A stretch of DNA of 45,947 nucleotides from positions 1-45,947 of the IMG/VR virus record IMGVR_UViG_3300035698_004611; one strand, written 5' to 3'. The DNA is from a virus. The translations under genes and the position numbers were made by a program. This document shows positions 4,130-44,371 of the stretch, piece by piece; position 1 is the first letter of the stretch; the number at the start of each line of letters is the position of its first letter. A model generated the notes under the pieces. That model was not told where the DNA came from and ran no database searches. It saw only the letters and a program-made list of their open reading frames with translations.

Positions 4130-4705
4130 ATGACCAAACTACAAGAACTTAAAAACAAAATAATAGAAGCAAATCCTAGTATTGAAAGAAATCAATTTGG
4201 ACAATTTAAAAATGGACATAAACCACTTTATATAGTTACTGGAAAAAACCATTCAAGATATAAACATGGACTTTATGGAACTCCAATTTATAAAAAATGG
4301 GAGGGAATGAAACGCCGATGTCTCAATAAGAATGAGGATTCTTATTCAAATTATGGTGGTCGTGGCATCAATGTATGTAAAGAATGGATGGATTTTATAG
4401 GATTTTATAATGATATGGGAAAGTCTTTTAAAAAAGGCTTATCTATTGAAAGAATTGATAATAATAAAGGATATTTTAAAGAAAATTGTAAATGGATACC
4501 ATTTAAATTACAAGCTAAAAATAAAAGAAATGTAAAATTATACACATTTAATGGTAAAACAATGACCATTATAGACTGGGCTCAAGAAATAGGAATTAAA
4601 TCAGAAACACTACGTGGTAGAATTAAAAGATATAATTGGTCTTTAGAAGATTCATTAACTAAAAAAGTAGATTATGCTAATAGATTTTTTCAAAAGACAA
4701 CCTAG
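4130..4705 (+). CDS. HNH/AP2-like phage DNA-binding or homing endonuclease-like protein
   Basis: A 191-residue protein with the conserved block GGRGINVCKEW, then FYNDMG, then IERIDNNKGYF and NCKWIP. I know this order from phage proteins annotated as HNH- or AP2-type homing proteins. The last 50 residues contain a predicted helix-turn-helix (TIIDWAQEIGIKSETLRGRI) like modular DNA-binding ends of such enzymes. It is preceded by its own promoter and an attenuator-like leader, and followed 43 bases later by the RNA ligase gene. Cleavage activity is inferred only. Confidence 0.6.
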   Translation: MTKLQELKNKIIEANPSIERNQFGQFKNGHKPLYIVTGKNHSRYKHGLYGTPIYKKWEGMKRRCLNKNEDSYSNYGGRGINVCKEWMDFIGFYNDMGKSFKKGLSIERIDNNKGYFKENCKWIPFKLQAKNKRNVKLYTFNGKTMTIIDWAQEIGIKSETLRGRIKRYNWSLEDSLTKKVDYANRFFQKTT

Positions 4706-12426: not shown

Positions 12427-13005
12427 ATGAAGAAATTAGCTGGTGGAAAATTAGCTGGTGGCAACCCAGAGCGGGGTAGAGTTGAAAATGATTTTTATGC
12501 TACTAATCCTGAAAGCGTGAAAGCATTACTTTGTGTTGAAAAAATATTTTCACCAATACTTGAGCCTGCCTGTGGTCAAGGACACATATCAAAGTTTTTT
12601 GATGATGGTAGTTACGACATTGCTTCCTATGATTTAATTGACAGAGGATATGGCAAGGGTGGAATTGATTTTTTAACTCACGAATTTAGACCTATTTATA
12701 ACACTGTAATCACAAATCCACCATTCAAACTATTCCAAGAATTTGTAGAGAAAGCGTTAAGAGTGGCTGATAAAAAAGTAATAATGTTTGGAAAACTACA
12801 AGCACTAGAGGGGTAAAAGAGGGCAACATTTTTAGAGACCACCCCGCTAAGAACTGTCTATGTATTTAAGAAAAGGCAAAAACCATTATGGAATGGCGTG
12901 GATTATTCTGATATTGTAGGAAGAAAAACCAGTAGCACAATGGCATTTGCTTGGTTTGTCTGGGAAAAAGGATTTATAGGAAAACCGACAATAGAATGGA
13001 TTTGA
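12427..13005 (+). pseudogene. DNA N6-adenine methyltransferase interrupted by an in-frame TAA
   Basis: The first 129 residues contain NDFYATNP, ILEPACGQGHIS (SAM motif I) and ITNPPFKLF (catalytic NPPF), ending at TAA 12814-12816 after MFGKLQALEG. The same frame continues for 62 codons: KRATFLETTPLRTVYVFKKR, then TMAFAWFVWEKGFIG, which are the usual C-terminal blocks of this phage family. A single codon change would restore a 192-residue protein. The break may be a real nonsense change, a sequencing error or a recoded stop; TAA is used as a normal stop throughout the window, so recoding is unlikely. Confidence 0.75.
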
Positions 13006-14296: not shown

Positions 14297-14341
14297 GCGG
14301 CGTTGGGGGTTTACCCCCCTTTCTCGGCTGTATATAAAATT

Positions 14342-14569
14342 ATGAATAAAGGACACAGAGATAATATACTAAGTATTTTAGAGAAATATAGCAAAGCAAG
14401 ACCAAGTGTCATTTGGTATGACCCGACTAAATGTATGTGGTTTTCTTATAGAAGCGTGCCGTTCCCAATGATTACTGATGAGCAACTAGCAACATGCAAT
14501 AGTCATCTTGACCTTCCTATTAGGTTAGCTATGAGTCATTTAAGATTTGAACTTGGGTTTAATATTTAA
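14342..14569 (+). CDS. Hypothetical protein
   Basis: A 75-residue soluble protein (HRDNILSILEKYSKARPSV, then WYDPTKCMWFSYRSVPFP). The frame is open farther upstream, but the ATG after the G/C hairpin is the likelier start. Family unknown. Confidence 0.5.
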   Translation: MNKGHRDNILSILEKYSKARPSVIWYDPTKCMWFSYRSVPFPMITDEQLATCNSHLDLPIRLAMSHLRFELGFNI

Positions 14570-14605
14570 CCACAATCTGAAAATTTTTTAAGCATTAAAA
14601 CAATT

Positions 14606-14803
14606 ATGAATAAAAAAATACTACAACAACTTAGAGAGGAGACAGAGTTAGCCATTGGTCGAACAGAAATAGACGAGAGGTTGGCTACCAGAAAGCTGAT
14701 AGAACAACCAGACAATACTGTTTTTAGCACAATACAAAACGAAATGAAAGCTAAGAGAGCTTATCTTAAAGACAAACTAAAATTTATTGATGAAGAACTT
14801 TAG
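14606..14803 (+). CDS. Helical hypothetical protein
   Basis: A 65-residue charged, helical protein, possibly a coiled coil. Its 3' end overlaps by 14 bases the first fragment of the O-antigen-ligase-like gene. Function unknown. Confidence 0.5.
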   Translation: MNKKILQQLREETELAIGRTEIDERLATRKLIEQPDNTVFSTIQNEMKAKRAYLKDKLKFIDEEL

Positions 14804-14933
14804 TTGGTTTCCATTATTGGCTGTGATAGTTTACTATCCTAGCGTGTTATTCCCCTTTATCACCCCTAAAGTGGTGTTATTTCAGATTAGCGTGGCAATA
14901 TTATTAATCGTTTGGTTATGGAAAAAACATTAA
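14790..14933 (+). CDS. O-antigen ligase-like protein, N-terminal membrane fragment
   Basis: A 47-residue frame with two hydrophobic helices separated by SVLFPFITPKVVLFQ and ending WLWKKH. In Parcubacteria-type O-antigen ligases (Wzy_C family), as I know them, the first residues read nearly the same: a helix, FFPFITGK, then a second helix. The next helices of that family appear only at 15346, in a separate frame, after two unrelated small ORFs. Read together this is fragment 1 of 3. It may act as a split protein or be a relic. Confidence 0.55.
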   Translation: MKNFSWFPLLAVIVYYPSVLFPFITPKVVLFQISVAILLIVWLWKKH

Positions 14934-15190
14934 AAGATTGTGAGAAAATAGCAGAAAATATAACCCCAGCACAGGAGCTGTTTTTAACATTACTGAAAAG
15001 AAAAAAATGTATTTGGTGTAAGACTCAATTTCCAGACGGGATTATTAGAAAGACACCCAAACAGGACAAGGGATTAAACGCCTATGCTTGGTTTACTAAT
15101 GAATTTCTAGTTCACGCCCAAACAACACACGGATATTCACCAGATGTTGTTCAATATTTTTTAGAAGAAACTAATAAAAATGAAAAATAA
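14918..15190 (+). CDS. Hypothetical protein between ligase fragments
   Basis: A 90-residue protein with CIWC near residue 32 and a TTHGYSP segment, perhaps one zinc finger. It overlaps fragment 1 of the O-antigen ligase at its start and the next ORF at its end. No family recognised; it is not ligase-like. Confidence 0.55.
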   Translation: MEKTLKDCEKIAENITPAQELFLTLLKRKKCIWCKTQFPDGIIRKTPKQDKGLNAYAWFTNEFLVHAQTTHGYSPDVVQYFLEETNKNEK

Positions 15191-15356
15191 ATGTAAAAAG
15201 TCAATAGATGGCAAGCATAGTATGGAAAGGCGAATTATTCATAACGAGGAAATAGGATTTAGCAATACAATAGTGGACATAATACCTAGATATGCCAAAT
15301 ATTGTGTTAAGTGCAAAAAATGGGGAAAAATAGAAAAAGTATATTATGAAAAATAA
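15180..15356 (+). CDS. Small CxxC protein between ligase fragments
   Basis: A 58-residue basic protein with YCVKCKKWGK near its end, a common zinc-binding half site. It overlaps its neighbours on both sides, including the ATG of ligase fragment 2. Function unknown. Confidence 0.5.
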   Translation: MKNKCKKSIDGKHSMERRIIHNEEIGFSNTIVDIIPRYAKYCVKCKKWGKIEKVYYEK

Positions 15357-16308
15357 ACTAACAATAGCAATAGGAGCTTTTATTCTAGTTATGGCTGTTG
15401 CCTCTATTTTTGGTTTAGACCCGTCAAAATCTCTTTGGGGTGGATATGAGAGAGGAACTGGAATTTTCTTTCTACTCCACCTTTTCGGTTTTTACTGGCT
15501 GGTTAAAAAAGGCAATAAGAAACTAGCTGTTCAGGTATCAGTCGGACTGAGTGTTTTGATGTGTTTACACGCTCTAGCCCGGAAGTTAGGATTGCCAGTT
15601 GTTCAGAGTGGACGCATTAGAGTATCAGCCACAATGGGTAATCCGATATTCCTTGCCTCTTATTTAGTCTTGAACTTCTACCTAGCTCTCTATTTAATGC
15701 GTAATATAATAAGGCGTATTCCTAAGAGCAAGATGTGGCAGTTTATCACTCTAGGATTTGTAGTTTTACTACAGTTATACACAATTTATTTGACTGGCAC
15801 CAGAGGTGCATATCTAGCACTAATGGTGTCTATACCGCTTTTGTTTGTATTCTACTTGAAGAAGAAGATACCAGCGATTATAGCTTTGGTAATTATCGTG
15901 TCTGGTGGGTTATACTTCCTAACCTCTTACAAGCAAGGAACTATTAAAACTAGGATAGCTTCTTATAAAATAGGCTATCAGGCAGTGAACTCACCCAAAC
16001 ATTTGATTATAGGTTATGGAGCAGAGAACTACTCACAAATTTTTAACCGCTACGCTACCCCAGAAACTATAAAGATTGACCCCTTTTTTGATAAAGCCCA
16101 CAATATAGTTATAGATGTGTTTGCTAACGCTGGTCTTTTAGGACTTCTAGCTTATCTCTCAATCTTTGTTTTTGCTATCATTAAGCTGTGGAAGAAGAAA
16201 GACTGGCTTTTGATCTGTGCCTTAGTAGCTTACTTTACCCAAAACTTCTTTGCCTTTGATACCCCAGTGTCTTACATTACTTTCTTTTTATTATTAGGAA
16301 TATTATAA
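15346..16308 (+). CDS. O-antigen ligase-like membrane protein, central fragment
   Basis: A 320-residue protein with about nine hydrophobic segments. Diagnostic blocks are GLDPSKSLWGGYERGTGI (23-40), SATMGNPIFLASYL, YLTGTRGAYLAL, FFDKAHNIVIDVFANAGLLG and ALVAYFTQNFFAFDTPVSY. These match the Wzy_C/O-antigen ligase family in the form carried by Parcubacteria, by memory and not by search. The family joins polysaccharide units to a lipid carrier at the outer face of the membrane. Full-length relatives carry two more N-terminal helices and a C-terminal TPR part, found here in ORFs 14790 and 16467. A surface-altering role against superinfection is inferred. Confidence 0.7.
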   Translation: MKNKLTIAIGAFILVMAVASIFGLDPSKSLWGGYERGTGIFFLLHLFGFYWLVKKGNKKLAVQVSVGLSVLMCLHALARKLGLPVVQSGRIRVSATMGNPIFLASYLVLNFYLALYLMRNIIRRIPKSKMWQFITLGFVVLLQLYTIYLTGTRGAYLALMVSIPLLFVFYLKKKIPAIIALVIIVSGGLYFLTSYKQGTIKTRIASYKIGYQAVNSPKHLIIGYGAENYSQIFNRYATPETIKIDPFFDKAHNIVIDVFANAGLLGLLAYLSIFVFAIIKLWKKKDWLLICALVAYFTQNFFAFDTPVSYITFFLLLGIL

Positions 16309-16312
16309 AACT

Positions 16313-16480
16313 ATGAAAAACAAAGAAATAAAAGAACTAGAAAAAATCTGGAGAGAACTTTACAAGATGTTTGATGAGGCAGATATGTTGTGGAATAGTA
16401 ATTCAATTTGTAAGGGAATAACAGAAGCATACACGAGCTGGAAATTAAGAAAATTATTTGATAAAAATGAAAATAATTAA
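16313..16480 (+). CDS. Small helical protein between ligase fragments
   Basis: A 55-residue charged helical protein (EIKELEKIWRELYKMF). It starts four bases after ligase fragment 2 and overlaps fragment 3 by 14 bases. No family recognised. Confidence 0.5.
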   Translation: MKNKEIKELEKIWRELYKMFDEADMLWNSNSICKGITEAYTSWKLRKLFDKNENN

Positions 16481-16853
16481 AACAATTCTACTACTCCCCG
16501 CTATTTGGTTTTCGGTTTCCTATTTTCTAGGTGGATACTACGCTATCAGATATGACCCTATAAACTACGACAAGGCAGTTTCTTTTGCACACTACGACAA
16601 TGATATAGTTAGAATATTCACTAACAGAACAATGACTTTAATGAATTTAGCGACCCCCCAATTAAAGCTGATAATGCTTGCCAAACTATTAAACGAGAAC
16701 GAGAGGGTAGCTGGAAACAACCTGAGAATAAACGCAAACTTAGTTAGTCTTTATCTTTTGGTCGGAGATAAAGTTAGGGCTCAAAAAACATTAAATAAAA
16801 TGATTCTTCTAAGCCCTGGAAGGATTGAAACCTATAAAAAAATGTATGAATGA
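16467..16853 (+). CDS. O-antigen ligase-like C-terminal TPR fragment
   Basis: A 128-residue protein. One membrane helix (about 4-25) is followed by AIRYDPINYDKAVSFAHYDN and a helical repeat ending KVRAQKTLNKMILLSPGR. In Parcubacteria-type O-antigen ligases the last membrane helix is followed by just such a TPR-like tail with an A..LSP.R motif. The fragment starts at an ATG inside the preceding small ORF; an in-frame TTG at 16458 is less likely. It is fragment 3 of 3. Confidence 0.55.
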   Translation: MKIIKTILLLPAIWFSVSYFLGGYYAIRYDPINYDKAVSFAHYDNDIVRIFTNRTMTLMNLATPQLKLIMLAKLLNENERVAGNNLRINANLVSLYLLVGDKVRAQKTLNKMILLSPGRIETYKKMYE

Positions 16854-17067
16854 GCCAACTATCTGTTCAAAAATTATTATCACATTCTTTTTCTTAGCAT
16901 TATTCGTAATGTTTATACTTTTGTTCTTACCACCTTTTATAATGCAAAAAGAAATGCAAGGCAGTAGTTATGACAGTAAATGCGATTGCTATGTAGTGGA
17001 CGGCATCATAAGAGTAGAGGGTGGTTGTCAATATTGCAACAATATACAATTAAAAATAATTAAATGA
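16846..17067 (+). CDS. Small membrane protein with Cys-rich tail
   Basis: A 73-residue protein with one membrane helix (about 10-30) and an outside-type tail holding CDC and CQYC. It overlaps its neighbours on both sides. Function unknown. Confidence 0.5.
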   Translation: MNEPTICSKIIITFFFLALFVMFILLFLPPFIMQKEMQGSSYDSKCDCYVVDGIIRVEGGCQYCNNIQLKIIK

Positions 17068-17279
17068 ATAAAATAAAAAGCCCAGAATTTCAATTCGGAC
17101 TTGTGATTGGTATCGTTATAACTTTCCTCTTTTGTTTAGCGTTTTCTACTAAGTATTTATATGTAGACTTCGACAACGAGCTAGGAGAGAAAAAGTCTTA
17201 TCCTATTGATGAAGTATTAGGGTCTCTTTTTGACGGGGAGATTAAAATAATGGAAGCTATCAACGAGAAGTGCGATTAG
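17064..17279 (+). CDS. Small single-helix membrane protein
   Basis: A 71-residue protein with a helix at about 12-28 and an acidic C-terminal part. Its stop overlaps by four bases the end of the leftward HNH gene, so the two transcription units converge here without a visible terminator. Confidence 0.5.
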   Translation: MNKIKSPEFQFGLVIGIVITFLFCLAFSTKYLYVDFDNELGEKKSYPIDEVLGSLFDGEIKIMEAINEKCD

Positions 17280-17848
17280 TTTCCGACCCCCTCGATTCTA
17301 TCTAGTGGCAGGGATTTGCCAGCCTCTTGGATGTGCCCATTTTGTTTATGTATTTCTTTATGGCATTTCTTACATAAAGTAATTCCATTATTAGTATCAA
17401 ATCTTAATTCGGGGTTATCTGCAAAAACCATTTTGTGGTGGGCTTCTAGTCGTGCTTTGTGATTTCCCTTAACATTACACATTTGACAAGTCCAATTATC
17501 TCTTTTATATACCCTATTTCTCCACTCTCTATATTCTCTTCCGCCCCTGATTATCTGGTTCTCGGTTGATACTCCGCCACGCCACATTGGATTTTTATTA
17601 CCCATTCTTGAACGGCTTACCTTGTCCTGAGCCTCTTTTTTAAACATAGGATTATCTTTTTTCATTCGTTCAATGAAAGCTTCAGTTCTATTACCCCAAG
17701 ATTGAGGATTTTCCACCCATGCTTTTTTCATAGCAATTCCAATATTATCCCTAGTCTGCTTACTTCGTTTTTGACCGAGATTGGATTGGCGAATTTTTTC
17801 TATAGTTTCTTGACTATGTGGTTTGTGTTTATATACTCCTTTGGGCAT
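17276..17848 (-). CDS. NUMOD3-HNH homing endonuclease
   Basis: About 190 residues from the ATG at 17848. The N-terminus MPKGVYKHKPHSQETIEKI and the segment MGNKNPMWRGG are NUMOD3-type DNA-binding repeats. The catalytic part has REWRNRVYKRDNWTCQMC, AHHKMVF, ITLCKKCHKEIH, the complete C..C-HH-C..CH nuclease core. It lies on the minus strand, in contrast to most genes, and is the last gene of the leftward operon. It looks free-standing, since no intron core is seen around it. A start 13 codons upstream is possible but less likely. Confidence 0.85.
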   Translation of the reverse strand: MPKGVYKHKPHSQETIEKIRQSNLGQKRSKQTRDNIGIAMKKAWVENPQSWGNRTEAFIERMKKDNPMFKKEAQDKVSRSRMGNKNPMWRGGVSTENQIIRGGREYREWRNRVYKRDNWTCQMCNVKGNHKARLEAHHKMVFADNPELRFDTNNGITLCKKCHKEIHKQNGHIQEAGKSLPLDRIEGVGN

Positions 17849-17906
17849 ATAGGCATTATAGTTCATTAAAAGAAAAAAGGCAAACAATTAACTGCTCTTT
17901 CAATGG

Positions 17907-18065
17907 CTATAAAATAACCCCTGCATCTTTTAATTCCCAATAACGCAAGACTAGAGTAATAACAAAGAGAACAGCCCCAACACCCCACAGAAAGAGCAAG
18001 ATATTATCTAGCTTTCTTTGTCTTATTAATTGTCTTTGATATTCTTTTGTGTTTGCAATATGCAT
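17907..18065 (-). CDS. Small single-helix membrane protein
   Basis: A 52-residue protein with a basic head (YQRQLIRQRKL) and one hydrophobic helix (about 21-41). It follows the next gene of the leftward operon by 14 bases. Function unknown. Confidence 0.55.
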   Translation of the reverse strand: MHIANTKEYQRQLIRQRKLDNILLFLWGVGAVLFVITLVLRYWELKDAGVIL

Positions 18066-18079
18066 ATTAGTTTATTTAA

Positions 18080-18262
18080 TTATATTATACGCATAACTTC
18101 ACCGCTTCTAGCTTTTTCTTGCCATTTTTCAATAAGTTTATGTTTTTTTACTTTAAAATTGAGACTATCATCATTTTTAACAGATACTCTTTCCAGTAAT
18201 GATAGCTCCTTATTATTAGTCAAAATTTCAGCACACTTTAAACAATTTTTATGATTTAACAT
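18080..18262 (-). CDS. Small basic protein with CxxC
   Basis: A 60-residue protein starting NHKNCLKCAEILTNN, then a charged helical stretch. It is the first gene after the leftward promoter at 18411-18383 and so may be an early or control gene, but it has no clear DNA-binding motif. Confidence 0.5.
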   Translation of the reverse strand: MLNHKNCLKCAEILTNNKELSLLERVSVKNDDSLNFKVKKHKLIEKWQEKARSGEVMRII

Positions 18263-18382
18263 ATCTTTGAGTTTAATTATTTATGACGCAAGGGGGAAGT
18301 TCGCACCTCCCCGCCCCGCCGTCTCTGCTGTGGTTTCGTGTTATTGAACATACCCGCCACAACTGACCTCCTCATCTATTTA

Positions 18383-18411
18383 ATACTATCAAACAAAACA
18401 AACCTTGTCAA
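18383..18411 (-). promoter_or_regulatory. Leftward promoter
   Basis: On the minus strand TTGACA (18411-18406) and TAGTAT (18388-18383) are 17 bases apart, a near-consensus sigma70 promoter. The leader before the first gene is about 110 bases and holds a hairpin GGGGAGGT/ACTTCCCC (about 18295-18315). A DnaA box lies about 20 bases upstream of the -35. Confidence 0.7.
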
Positions 18412-18429
18412 GAGTCTATACCGTCAAAC

Positions 18430-18890
18430 TGTGGATAACTCTTGCAGACATATTAAACAAAGAGCGTGCTAGAGTTATATTGTCTAGTATTAAGCACCTT
18501 GTATGGCTTCAAAAAATAAGATAGAATAAAATCAATCCAATGATACAACTAAATTTAATTAAATATTGGGGCGGGAACTGATTTTAGTTTTCCGTTTTTT
18601 TTGTTTTCTAGAGGGTATATAAAAGAGCTATTCATTTTAAAACTTCGGTTTTAATAATAAGCTAAAGAGGGGAACACCCGATTACTTTATACCCCCTCTA
18701 AAGAACAAAAGAGTTCTTAAGGGACACAGTAGCAGTGTGATTAATTTCAAGATGCTACCGACCGACCGAGCGACCGACCATACTGATAAAAATTTAAGTT
18801 AAATTTTAACAGCTTTGACCTATACAAGATTATAGGGCTGGATATATTATCAGGGGGAGGGAGTGAAGGGAAGGGAAGGGCGTGGGTAAT
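18430..18890. other. Gene-free control region, candidate origin
   Basis: The 700-base stretch 18263-18962 holds no gene. It contains a perfect DnaA box (TGTGGATAA, 18430-18438) and a weak hairpin with eight T (about 18577-18600). Four adjacent hairpins follow: TTAAAAC-TTCG-GTTTTAA (18637-18654), AGAGGGG/CCCCTCT (18666-18699), AAGAAC/GTTCTT (18701-18718) and ACAC/GTGT (18724-18738). Next is a tandem ACCG array (18757-18779), and then six runs of at least three G (18853-18886) able to form a quadruplex. It separates the leftward operon from the rightward packaging genes. Origin function is inferred. Confidence 0.5.
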
Positions 18891-18962
18891 ATTACGTTAG
18901 GTTAGTTATAAGTAAACTTAGTAGTAATCAGTCTCTATTAGTAATCATTCCTATTAAGCTAT

Positions 18963-19163
18963 ATGAATAATATAATTGATACTATAGACGCTAAAGAGCT
19001 AGCCAAGACAGTTTTAATGAAAGACCAAAAAGGAAAGTGTTACTATTGCGAGCAAGACAAAGGGATACTATTCTTACAAAGGAAGTTAAATGATAGCGAG
19101 CAGATACTAAGGAACCTATGTTTAGCTTGTCCTCAATGTGTAGATTTAAGCAAGGCATTATAA
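18963..19163 (+). CDS. Zinc-ribbon hypothetical protein
   Basis: A 66-residue protein with CYYCEQ near 26 and CLACPQC near 53. It is the first gene right of the control region. Family unknown. Confidence 0.6.
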   Translation: MNNIIDTIDAKELAKTVLMKDQKGKCYYCEQDKGILFLQRKLNDSEQILRNLCLACPQCVDLSKAL

Positions 19164-19221
19164 CCTAATAGAGATATAAACTCGTTAGAGGGTATAAATA
19201 ACTATAAATAAACTAGAAGAT

Positions 19222-19392
19222 ATGCGAATATTTCAATTATTAGAAAATATCAAAACTATACCAGCAGGTAAAACTATAAACCAACAGATTAAAAGAGAGA
19301 TAAAAGCTCAAAAGAAAGTATCAAGGGCTGGAAAATTAAGAATACTACAATTTACCATTAAAGATGACAAAAATGCCAGCACCAAAGGGTAA
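19222..19392 (+). CDS. Small basic hypothetical protein
   Basis: A 56-residue basic protein (FQLLENIKTIPAGKTINQQI) that overlaps the start of the terminase small subunit by 29 bases. Function unknown. Confidence 0.45.
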   Translation: MRIFQLLENIKTIPAGKTINQQIKREIKAQKKVSRAGKLRILQFTIKDDKNASTKG

Positions 19393-19888
19393 TCAATTCG
19401 CTAGAAAGAATAGGAAGTTCAAAACAGCCAAACAGCTTGAAAATAGGATTCAGGAGTATTTTGATTATTGCGATTTAAAGGTTATAAGTAGAAAAAGGAA
19501 TAGAAAGGGAGAAGTAGTAGAAGAACTAACAGTACCTTATACGTGGATAGGATTAAGTGCCTTTTTAGGTATAGATGATTCAACTATTAGAAGGTATAGA
19601 TTAAGGAGCAGACCAGAGGTTTTAAAGCTAAAGAAAGACGTTTTGACGAAGGAGGAGTATAATAATGATAAGAAGATTCACACACTATTAAAAAGAACCC
19701 GCCAATATCTAGACGCTAATATGACAGAAAATGCCTTAACGGGGAAGTCTAACCCTATATTCTCAATGTTTGTAATGAAGAACCATTTTGGCTATGCAGA
19801 TAAGCAAGAGATAGACCACACAAGCAAGGGCAAGGAAGTTAAGGGCTTTAATATCACAGTAAGCGAGGATAAACCAGATAATGAGTAG
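19364..19888 (+). CDS. Terminase small subunit
   Basis: A 174-residue protein starting MTKMPAPKGNQFARKN, an opening common in phage small terminases. It continues with QLENRIQEYFDYCD, a helix-turn-helix region (YTWIGLSAFLGIDDSTIRRY), then IFSMFVMKNHFGYADKQEI, the usual C-terminal block. It recognises the packaging site and feeds DNA to the large subunit at 20440. An 18-codon frame (19881-19937) overlaps its end and may be chance. Confidence 0.8.
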   Translation: MTKMPAPKGNQFARKNRKFKTAKQLENRIQEYFDYCDLKVISRKRNRKGEVVEELTVPYTWIGLSAFLGIDDSTIRRYRLRSRPEVLKLKKDVLTKEEYNNDKKIHTLLKRTRQYLDANMTENALTGKSNPIFSMFVMKNHFGYADKQEIDHTSKGKEVKGFNITVSEDKPDNE

Positions 19889-26639: not shown

Positions 26640-28366
26640 ATGGAATTAACATCACAATGGGCTCAAGCACTTGAGCCAAATATTAAGTCATGGGTTTAGA
26701 AATGAGCCCCAATAATTTTTCTTTATGCCATATAAAGATAAACAAAAACAAAAAGAATACTTTTACAATTACAATCATTATGAAAAAGAGTGCATTGAAT
26801 GTGGCACAAAAGTAATTGGTGATAAAAAAAGAAAGTATTGTAAAAAATGTCTAAGCATTTTTAGAAGTGCAAGATTAAAAAATGCTAAAATATGGAAAAA
26901 GAATATAGATAAAAAAGGATGTTTCAAAAAGGGCGAAGATAGCCCCAATAAAGGAAAGAAGTGTTCTTTTAATGCCAAGTTTGGCAAAGACAATCCAATG
27001 TGGAAAGGTGGAATAACAGACCCATATTCAACCCTTAAAAAGAGTTTTGAATGGAAGGAATGGCGTAAGTCGGTCTTTGAAAGAGACGACTATACTTGCC
27101 AAGAGTGCGATATAAATGGTTCTGAATTACACCCACACCATATTTACGAGAGAAGAAATTATCCAGAGATTATGTTTTTAGAGGAAAACGGGATAACTCT
27201 TTGTAAAGATTGTCACCAAGAAACATTTAATAAAGAAGAAAAATATAGAGAGAAATTATTGAAAAATGGGATGAATTCAGGGAATATCCTCAAATTGAGG
27301 ACAATCCTGAGCCAAGCCGAGGGTACACCCTCGGAAGGTGCAACGACTACTGGAGCGGTACAGCCCGCTTAATAACCAGCCAGAGCGTCCCACCAGAAAT
27401 GGATGATATAGTCTGAACTGCATAGTAATATGCAGAAGCATAGGAGAAATCCCTATGCGATAACACAATTGTCATGATGGCTATAAAGCCTACCCAGATT
27501 TGACTCCAGAATTGTTTGAAATGGATAGCGATAAATCAGGAGTACTGAGATACCAAAGAAGTTGGTCACAACGTATAGTTCCTAAAAGTTCAGAAGGTGC
27601 TTCTTCACCAGAAGCTTCATTAACTAAAGGTTATCAATTAATTGAAAACCCACAAGTATTCAAACAGAAAATGTCTGTAACCAAAGAATATGTCACTCGT
27701 GGCATGTACTCTGAGATTAAAGATATGGCTTCTGCTTTGGGTCGGGCTTCAATCGAATCTGTTAATCTTTTCGGAGCTGGTGTTCCGATTAATGCCTTCT
27801 CGACTTCTTATAATGGAGCTGACGCTAAACCTTTATGTTCAGTCTCTCATCCAAGAGCGGATGGTGGCTCAACACAAAGTAACGCCTCTTCAACTGGTAT
27901 TACCTTAACGGAATCCAATCTTGAGATTGGAATGAATGCTATTAGAGCTCAACTGTCAGATACTGGCGGTAAACTCAATATCGGAATTAACAATCTCAAA
28001 TTAATGGTTCCTTTTGCCCTTGAGAAAGAAGCTGTGATTATCACAGGTTCTGAACAAAGGTCTGGTACTGCTAATAACGACGCTAACTGGTATCGTGGTA
28101 AAATTGATGTCTTGGTACATCCTTTCTTGGATGCTAATACCACTGACCTCGATGGAAACTCTGGCTCAGATACTGCATGGTATCTGTTTGCACAAGGTGT
28201 CCACGGTTTGAAGTTTGTCTGGGAAGAAAGACCTTTATTCAAGATGTGGGATGACGAAGATAATGACGCAATGTTTACTAAGATTTACATGTCATGTCGT
28301 CCACTCTTTGATGATTGGCGTGGATTCTGGGGTTCTAAAGGAGACGGTTTAGCTTACAGTTCATAA
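26640..28366 (+). CDS. Major capsid protein, spliced from two exons
   Basis: Exon 1 (26640-26697) codes MELTSQWAQALEPNIKSWV plus one base; exon 2 (27477-28366) continues YGYKAYPDLTPELFEM in frame. Removing the intron 26698-27476 yields 315 residues with no stop. The product fits phage major capsid proteins: a WxY.GY.xYPxL.PELF start, then MSVTKEYVTRGMYSEIKDMA and a long beta-rich C-terminal half. It follows scaffold and decoration genes. The intron end at 27476 is chosen because it is a G and keeps the frame; 27479 would also keep the frame. Without splicing only an incomplete protein from 27500 could be made. Confidence 0.8.
26698..27476 (+). other. Group I intron in the major capsid gene
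   Basis: About 779 bases. The 5' exon end GGGTTT (26692-26697) can pair with GAGCCC (about 26703-26708) to form P1 with the expected terminal U-G pair. Near the 3' end, ACAATCCTGAGCC (27301-27313) is the conserved core piece also found in trnL introns. It is followed by the hairpin CCGAGGG-TACA-CCCTCGG. P7 can form from GACTA (27345-27349) and TAGTC (27409-27413). P9-like hairpins precede the terminal G at 27476. The intron contains an HNH gene. It should splice itself out of the capsid mRNA. Confidence 0.85.
26725..27372 (+). CDS. Intron-encoded HNH homing endonuclease
   Basis: A 215-residue protein. It begins MPYKDKQKQKEYF with an N-terminal zinc finger (CIECGTK..CKKC) and a NUMOD3-like FGKDNPMWKGG segment. 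The nuclease part has EWRKSVFERDDYTCQEC, HPHHIYERR and ITLCKDCHQETF, the full HNH core. The last 30 codons overlap the intron core, a common economy. The enzyme would cut intron-less capsid genes and so spread the intron. Its first residues resemble those of the free-standing HNH at 43730. Confidence 0.85.
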   Translation: MPYKDKQKQKEYFYNYNHYEKECIECGTKVIGDKKRKYCKKCLSIFRSARLKNAKIWKKNIDKKGCFKKGEDSPNKGKKCSFNAKFGKDNPMWKGGITDPYSTLKKSFEWKEWRKSVFERDDYTCQECDINGSELHPHHIYERRNYPEIMFLEENGITLCKDCHQETFNKEEKYREKLLKNGMNSGNILKLRTILSQAEGTPSEGATTTGAVQPA

Positions 28367-29192: not shown

Positions 29193-29792
29193 ATGTTTAA
29201 AAAAAAGAACAAAATAGTTCTTGTTTCTCCAACCTATTCGGAGAAAATGTACACCAAGTCAGCTATGTCAATGATGGTTCAGGTATTTCTGAACTACGAC
29301 ATTAAGGGGATTATATTTCCCACATCTCAAAGTCGTAATTTAGCTGAGATTAGGAACGATTTAGTTGAACAAGCGTTTGACGCAGTTCCAGACTTAACCC
29401 ATATCTTATGGTTAGATGGAGACCAAATGTTTCCAAAGGATATGATTCCCAAGTTAGTTAAACACGACAAAGATGTTGTCGGTGCTTGGGTAGTAATCCG
29501 CCAAAACAAACTTCCTAATGTCTATAGGATTATAGGAAAGAAGACTAAAAATGGTGGATATAGGCACGAACCAGTTGTCGGAAAGGGTTTGTGTAAGGTA
29601 GACCGATTAGGATTTGGTTCTATCTTAGTTAAAAGAGAAGTCTTTGACAAAATGAAAAAACCATACTTTGCGTTTGACAAGTCGCATCAAACCGAAGATT
29701 TATATTTTTGCGACAAAGCCCGTGAACAAGGGTTTGAAATATGGGTCGATTTCAATCTTAAAAGTGGGCATTTATCAGTAATAGAATTATAA
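29193..29792 (+). CDS. Glycosyltransferase (GT-A, family 2-like)
   Basis: A 199-residue protein with IVLVSPTYSEKMYTKSA at the start, a metal-binding D-rich site ILWLDGDQMFP and TEDLYFCDKAREQGFEIW near the end, the general-base and acceptor region of GT-A enzymes. It moves a sugar from a nucleotide-sugar, probably to a protein or glycan. It lies among anchored adhesin-like genes, which could be its targets. The 5' leader (29100-29192) has an AGCC/GGCT stem around a TTCG-containing hairpin. Confidence 0.75.
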   Translation: MFKKKNKIVLVSPTYSEKMYTKSAMSMMVQVFLNYDIKGIIFPTSQSRNLAEIRNDLVEQAFDAVPDLTHILWLDGDQMFPKDMIPKLVKHDKDVVGAWVVIRQNKLPNVYRIIGKKTKNGGYRHEPVVGKGLCKVDRLGFGSILVKREVFDKMKKPYFAFDKSHQTEDLYFCDKAREQGFEIWVDFNLKSGHLSVIEL

Positions 29793-43729: not shown

Positions 43730-44371
43730 ATGCCATATAAAGACCCACAAAAAAGAAAAGAATATCATAAAGCCTATAGTCAAAAATGGAATAGTAGAAA
43801 TCCTGATAAATTAAAGGAATATAAAAGAAAGACAAGGGCAAAAAATTTAGTTAAAATAAGAGAACAAGATAGATTGGCTCATCGTGGTTGGATTATTTGT
43901 ATAAAATGTCATGAAGCAGCTTATGGAAGCAGAAAAAGAAAATATTGTAATAATTGTAGAAAAAAAGTTTGTAGTGAATTTTTTAAAGGAAATCAATATT
44001 GGAAAAATGTAAATCCACATAACAGATTAAGAGGTGAGAATCATCCAAACTGGCAAGGTGGTATAACATTTTGGAAGAAAAGAATATACGATAGTCCAAA
44101 TTATAAGAAATGGAGAAAGGCTATTTTCGAGAGAGACAATTATACTTGCCAAGAATGTGAAGTTAGGAGTTGTGTCGGCAAGAAAGTGAAGTTAGAGGCA
44201 CATCACTTAAAATCATTCACGGTATTATTACGAGACAATAACATTAAATCAAGGGAGCAGGCTGACTTATGCGATGAACTATGGGATGTTTCCATTGGTC
44301 AAACGCTTTGTTATGAATGCCATAACTCAACAAAAAATGGAAGACAAGACCATGTTAATAAAAAATTATAA
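43730..44371 (+). CDS. Free-standing HNH homing endonuclease
   Basis: A 213-residue protein beginning MPYKDPQKRKEYHKAY, with a CIKC..CNNC zinc finger, a NUMOD3-like NHPNWQGG segment, then KWRKAIFERDNYTCQECE, AHHLKSF and TLCYECHNSTK, the complete HNH core. The first 14 bases match the start of the intron-encoded gene at 26725 exactly. No group I core is found around it. It overlaps the 5' end of the following peptidase by 20 bases, so it may have inserted there. The gap before it (43593-43729) holds a 19-codon frame at 43649. Confidence 0.85.
   Translation: MPYKDPQKRKEYHKAYSQKWNSRNPDKLKEYKRKTRAKNLVKIREQDRLAHRGWIICIKCHEAAYGSRKRKYCNNCRKKVCSEFFKGNQYWKNVNPHNRLRGENHPNWQGGITFWKKRIYDSPNYKKWRKAIFERDNYTCQECEVRSCVGKKVKLEAHHLKSFTVLLRDNNIKSREQADLCDELWDVSIGQTLCYECHNSTKNGRQDHVNKKL

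Follow-up and report, generated by a model that had tools for sequence, protein, structure and literature searches.

The Wzy_C/WaaL enzyme family and the phenomenon of split phage genes are both known already. In the O-antigen ligase WaaL, three residues, R215, R288 and H338, are reported to be important for function (PMC3643930). A phage-borne member of the family is the Wzy-beta polymerase of phage D3, a Wzy_C protein shown experimentally to convert the O-antigen of its Pseudomonas host (PMC4815439). The nrdA enzyme of phage Aeh1 is functional although it is split and has a gene between its parts, and nrdD of phage phiAS4 is also encoded by separate ORFs (PMC3653736). Phages of Patescibacteriota have been reported to carry O-antigen sugar genes (PMC12911398).

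The whole stretch of DNA analysed here, called the window below, is a 46-kb virus record with genes for terminase subunits, portal, head and tail fibres. Three of its ORFs together resemble a TPR-tailed ligase of the WaaL/Wzy_C superfamily (Table 1). The phage probably, though by no means certainly, encodes a working multi-chain lipid-linked-glycan ligase of the patescibacterial type. One translationally coupled operon would yield hairpin, catalytic core and TM-TPR tail as separate proteins, and these three chains would come together in the host membrane. The assembled ligase would then transfer a glycan from its lipid carrier to an acceptor on the surface, a step that would alter the host surface, presumably to the benefit of the phage.

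Homology and order of the ligase pieces

The pieces were assigned with an HMM of 728 positions, which was built from 77 full-length Patescibacteria ligases and searched against all 675 window ORFs of at least 30 aa. The top three matches are frag2, frag1 and frag3. The core, frag2, also matches the full length of the Pfam family Wzy_C (PF04932, positions 1-149) with 66.5 bits, the curated cut-off being 31.7. The match of frag3 is weak by HMMER (positions 542-584 at the TPR end, E 0.008 among the 675 ORFs). Against a profile of the tail only, this ORF ranks first of the 675, and none of 1000 shuffled versions scores as high. Furthermore, hhalign aligns its residues 33-124 over 92 columns with an E value of 1.1e-6.

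Table 1. Genes of the split-ligase chain. HMM denotes the ligase profile, with E values for the search of 675 window ORFs.
Feature	Position	Strand	Remarks
Chain-head ORF, 65 aa	14606..14803	+	overlaps frag1 by 14 nt
frag1, 47-aa N-terminal membrane hairpin (TM helices 1-2) of ligase	14790..14933	+	HMM 21-56, E 5e-7; host alignment
gapA1, 90-aa small ORF, Cys-rich, unrelated to ligase	14918..15190	+	16-nt overlap with frag1
gapA2, 58-aa small ORF, unrelated to ligase	15180..15356	+	starts with ATGAAAAATAAA; the next copy of this 12-mer overlaps its end
frag2, 320-aa Wzy_C catalytic core	15346..16308	+	PF04932 E 2.9e-18; HMM 68-415, E 3e-79
gapB, 55-aa small ORF between core and tail, unrelated	16313..16480	+	no ligase match
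frag3, 128-aa tail: TM helix and one TPR unit	16467..16853	+	tail profile E 2e-4; hhalign E 1e-6
Small membrane ORF after frag3, 73 aa, same chain	16846..17067	+	8-nt overlap; no ligase match

All three ORFs start with ATG and are collinear with the family. Taken in order, they correspond to the parts of a Patescibacteria WaaL/Wzy_C ligase: the first to its N-terminal membrane hairpin, the second to its Wzy_C core and the third to its TM and TPR tail. The succession of hairpin, core, TM and TPR tail that characterizes the Patescibacteria TPR-tailed ligases is present, with the tail shortened. Those ligases are usually, but not universally, single polypeptides (loci L085-L088, described below, are also split), and here there are three ORFs. 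The cuts cost only poorly conserved loops, at approximately profile positions 57-67 and 416-445, and none of the three pieces contains an internal stop or frameshift.

The gap ORFs score at noise level against the ligase HMM in the search of the 675 window ORFs. No Pfam family over its cut-off, no PHROG and no phage relative was found for gapA1, and INPHARED phages contain no relatives of either gapA1 or gapA2. Nine genes, all started by ATG, follow one another from 14606 to 17279 with overlaps of 4-16 nt, the single exception being a 4-nt gap. In its layout this chain resembles a translationally coupled operon. Simple readthrough or frameshifting that would join the three pieces is excluded by stops in every relevant frame. 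The original prediction had described a Parcubacteria-type Wzy_C ligase that is broken between its domains, has small overlapping ORFs unlike the ligase in the gaps, and consists of fragments with their own ATGs that no stop or frame repair would join. It agrees with these results on each of these points, and its coordinates for the three ORFs are correct.

An intron- or intein-split gene was considered and rejected: the region from 14300 to 19400 has no Rfam match at E<=0.5 that would place a self-splicing element between the pieces, and the gap ORFs have neither a Pfam match over the cut-off nor a convincing PHROG. Several HNH endonuclease genes are present in the window, at 4130-4705, 17276-17887, 26725-27372 and 43730-44371. 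The second of these comes shortly after the split ligase, on the opposite strand. The ORF at 26725-27372 is a presumed HNH gene, which shares a 15-nt start context with that at 43730.

The 12-mer ATGAAAAAYAAA has three copies in the genome, at 15180, 15346 and 16313, all of them at gene starts that adjoin the cuts. At the first two positions it both closes one gene and opens the following one. The three matches compare with 0.06 expected in shuffles, for a pattern that was picked after being noticed. Start sites of neighbouring genes are weakly enriched in similarity (p 0.02 and 0.15 by two measures), and start sites in this A-rich genome resemble each other, which is a caveat on the reading of the 12-mer. 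The joints suggest that the small genes may have been inserted between the pieces via short homology. It is conceivable, but we put it forward only tentatively, that the genes of a three-chain polytopic membrane enzyme have become interleaved with unrelated phage genes in this manner. The start/stop joints would let small genes enter without frame breakage, and the operon could be opened at domain boundaries and yet stay functional.

Catalytic core and tail

Structures were predicted for single chains, namely frag2 alone and frag3 alone. The AF2 model of frag2 (pLDDT 90, pTM 0.89) has the WaaL-like multi-helix membrane fold. WaaL (7tpg) is its top Foldseek match, with an E value of 3e-6 and a TM score of 0.65 by query length, and is the sole PDB match below E 0.001. 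The next match, below significance, is FtsW, another lipid-linked-glycan enzyme.

Residues R153, R203 and H252 of frag2 are invariant across 58 aligned sequences (A7). By motif order they would correspond to R215, R288 and H338 of WaaL and are candidate catalytic residues. The reaction predicted for the phage ligase is transfer of a lipid-linked glycan to an acceptor. Among the 47 columns that are at least 90% conserved in the hosts, frag2 keeps 33 and differs in 14, the host median being 98% kept. One extracytoplasmic loop, which bears a conserved Arg (profile R279), is absent from frag2 and also from one of the split host forms, G067.

The first helix of frag3 corresponds in the host alignment to the last TM of the host ligases. 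Its AF2 model consists of a TM helix (residues 2-29) and TPR-like helices, and the PDB neighbours of the model are almost all TPR proteins, none passing E 1e-3. Whereas host tails have several TPR units, frag3 stops once the first is complete.

The lost loop and conserved residues of frag2 and the short tail of frag3 would fit a stepwise decay, in which insertions disrupted a captured ligase that is now being lost, its pieces being remnants that are still open by chance. The same phage has a DNA-methyltransferase-like gene (12427-12997) with one frame open except for a TAA at 12814-12816, after which about 60 codons follow in frame. This in-frame stop shows that decay does occur in this phage. 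For the ligase, however, we regard it as unlikely. Each piece is free of internal stops and frameshifts and has its own ATG in the coupled chain, the cuts are confined to loops, and the putative catalytic residues are kept. Moreover, a second virus (L082) repeats both the core/tail cut and the truncation of the tail, and four hosts repeat the cut.

Relatives, recurrence of the cut and host

Relatives were sought in 84,980 species genomes with search patterns that were steered by a hand-made motif alignment (A1), and tblastn searches that started from the core of the window confirmed the matches. This gave 283 confirmed relatives, 80 of which were kept. All but one of the 80 are in Patescibacteria or MAGs, and they are 28-34% identical over nearly the whole core. 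The contig of locus L002 is labelled Deltaproteobacteria, and its ligase is inside the Patescibacteria tree; this is probably misbinning or, alternatively, gene transfer. Those kept relatives that are not cut by a contig end are all single ORFs of about 600-830 aa, mostly 610-780 aa, and none of those kept has the N-terminal hairpin as a separate ORF.

A survey of 380 Patescibacteria genomes gave matches in 140. Nearly all of the listed open frames are 600-880 aa long, and the short ones were read individually. In four loci, L085 (G362), L086 (G003), L087 (G067) and L088 (G263), the core and the tail are encoded by two neighbouring ORFs, with the cut in the same loop. The neighbours of L085 are a probable flippase gene and an epimerase gene. 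The G067 and G263 forms have drifted further, with the equivalent of R218 lost, and may differ in function. At another locus (L090, G148:C39), a ligase core that is truncated by the contig end is preceded by two TM-TPR ORFs of the ligase-tail type.

When viral contigs were scanned with the core, as a single protein and as an alignment, one further carrier was found, L082, whose terminase differs from that of the window. In L082 the core covers positions 15-419 and the tail 447-580; their ORFs are in different frames and overlap by 20 nt, and the tail ends after the same TPR as frag3. Of about 150 listed host genes, 4 have the core/tail cut, as do both virus genes found; on these counts it is a minority but natural form. 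Its recurrence in a second virus and in four Patescibacteria chromosomal loci is what is new here. Because the cut recurs in host genomes and in a second, independent contig, a sequencing or assembly artefact, or a chimera, is highly improbable, even for a metagenomic contig to which no near relatives were found for comparison; the gaps, too, are complete ORFs in other frames and not single indels.

The ligase tree has long branches and leaves the window gene unplaced. It neither demonstrates nor rejects a common clade of split forms (p 0.28 for the two phages and 0.23 for all six). With one origin or several, the split form has survived over deep divergence, and the window and L082 retain most of the core motifs, an outcome that simple decay would not give. 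The original prediction left the choice between a working multi-chain enzyme and stepwise decay open; the cut in the second virus and in the four host loci speaks for the first of these.

Among the loci examined, this window alone has a separate gene for the first hairpin and unrelated genes between the pieces. The three-gene split is real, but only these two features of it are unique. That core/tail is the sole split seen elsewhere, with no host found to have the hairpin apart, would suit an arrangement in which only the core and tail, or the core alone, work and frag1 is either a relic or has taken on a new role as a small membrane protein. We consider this rather improbable, as frag1 retains its family match (E 5e-7), is in the right place and has its own start.

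INPHARED phages contain no relatives of the ligase. Among 80 terminase-related virus loci there is no convincing ligase, and the full records of 30 have none, so the ligase is not common to the related phages found.

The window terminase is 44% identical to that of Bacteroides phage Versailles and 51% identical to a prophage terminase in a Patescibacteria genome, its nearest kin found. A Bacteroidota host, suggested by the terminase matches, became less likely once the closer, patescibacterial one was found; Shine-Dalgarno use is not discriminating as a host marker. Given the kin of the ligase and the prophage terminase, the host is most likely a patescibacterium. The prophage itself (L092/L094/L095, G374:C1, about 32.7-53 kb) has no ligase in the part read, and host-type membrane and glycosyltransferase-like genes, with types judged by eye from translations, reach its terminase. 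That a host gene was captured, as originally proposed, is likely, with all close relatives bar one in Patescibacteria or MAGs and the nearest terminase in a patescibacterial prophage. A change of the host surface is a reasonable role for the ligase in view of the O-antigen sugar genes of Patescibacteriota phages and the Wzy_C polymerase of D3. Such a change might, as the original prediction supposed, keep other phages out. Among the virion genes of the window, the ORF at 29193-29792 encodes a glycosyltransferase-like protein (Anp1-type, below the Pfam cut-off; PHROG glycosyltransferase), which could act on the same surface glycan.

Patescibacteria are tiny parasitic bacteria and form a vast group, about whose surface chemistry and phages very little is known. 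If our reading is correct, their viruses would include carriers of a multi-chain surface-glycan ligase. The repeated core/tail cut in hosts and phages shows where this ligase family can be divided and suggests that its TPR tail is a partner that can be separated from the core. The split ligase is also a directly testable system.

Comparison with known systems

The phage ligase has the core fold and the conserved Arg/Arg/His order in common with the O-antigen ligase WaaL (PF04932; 7tpg), but it is only 18% identical, consists of three chains, is TPR-tailed and is phage-borne. The single-chain TPR-tailed ligases of Patescibacteria (L003-L081) contain the same domains in the same order and are about 28-39% identical in the core, but they are single ORFs, whereas the tail of the phage ligase has been reduced to a single TPR unit. 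L085-L088 and L082 share with the window the loop in which core and tail are cut apart and the family order of the resulting ORFs. These, however, are two-piece forms with adjacent or overlapping ORFs and no foreign gene between them, and the hairpin stays on the core.

Like the phage ligase, Wzy-beta of phage D3 is a phage-borne membrane enzyme of the Wzy_C family, but it is a polymerase and a single chain. Aeh1 nrdA and phiAS4 nrdD resemble the phage ligase in that one enzyme is distributed over separate ORFs. The Aeh1 enzyme is soluble and its insert is a homing endonuclease, whereas the inserts of the phage ligase are unrelated small ORFs.
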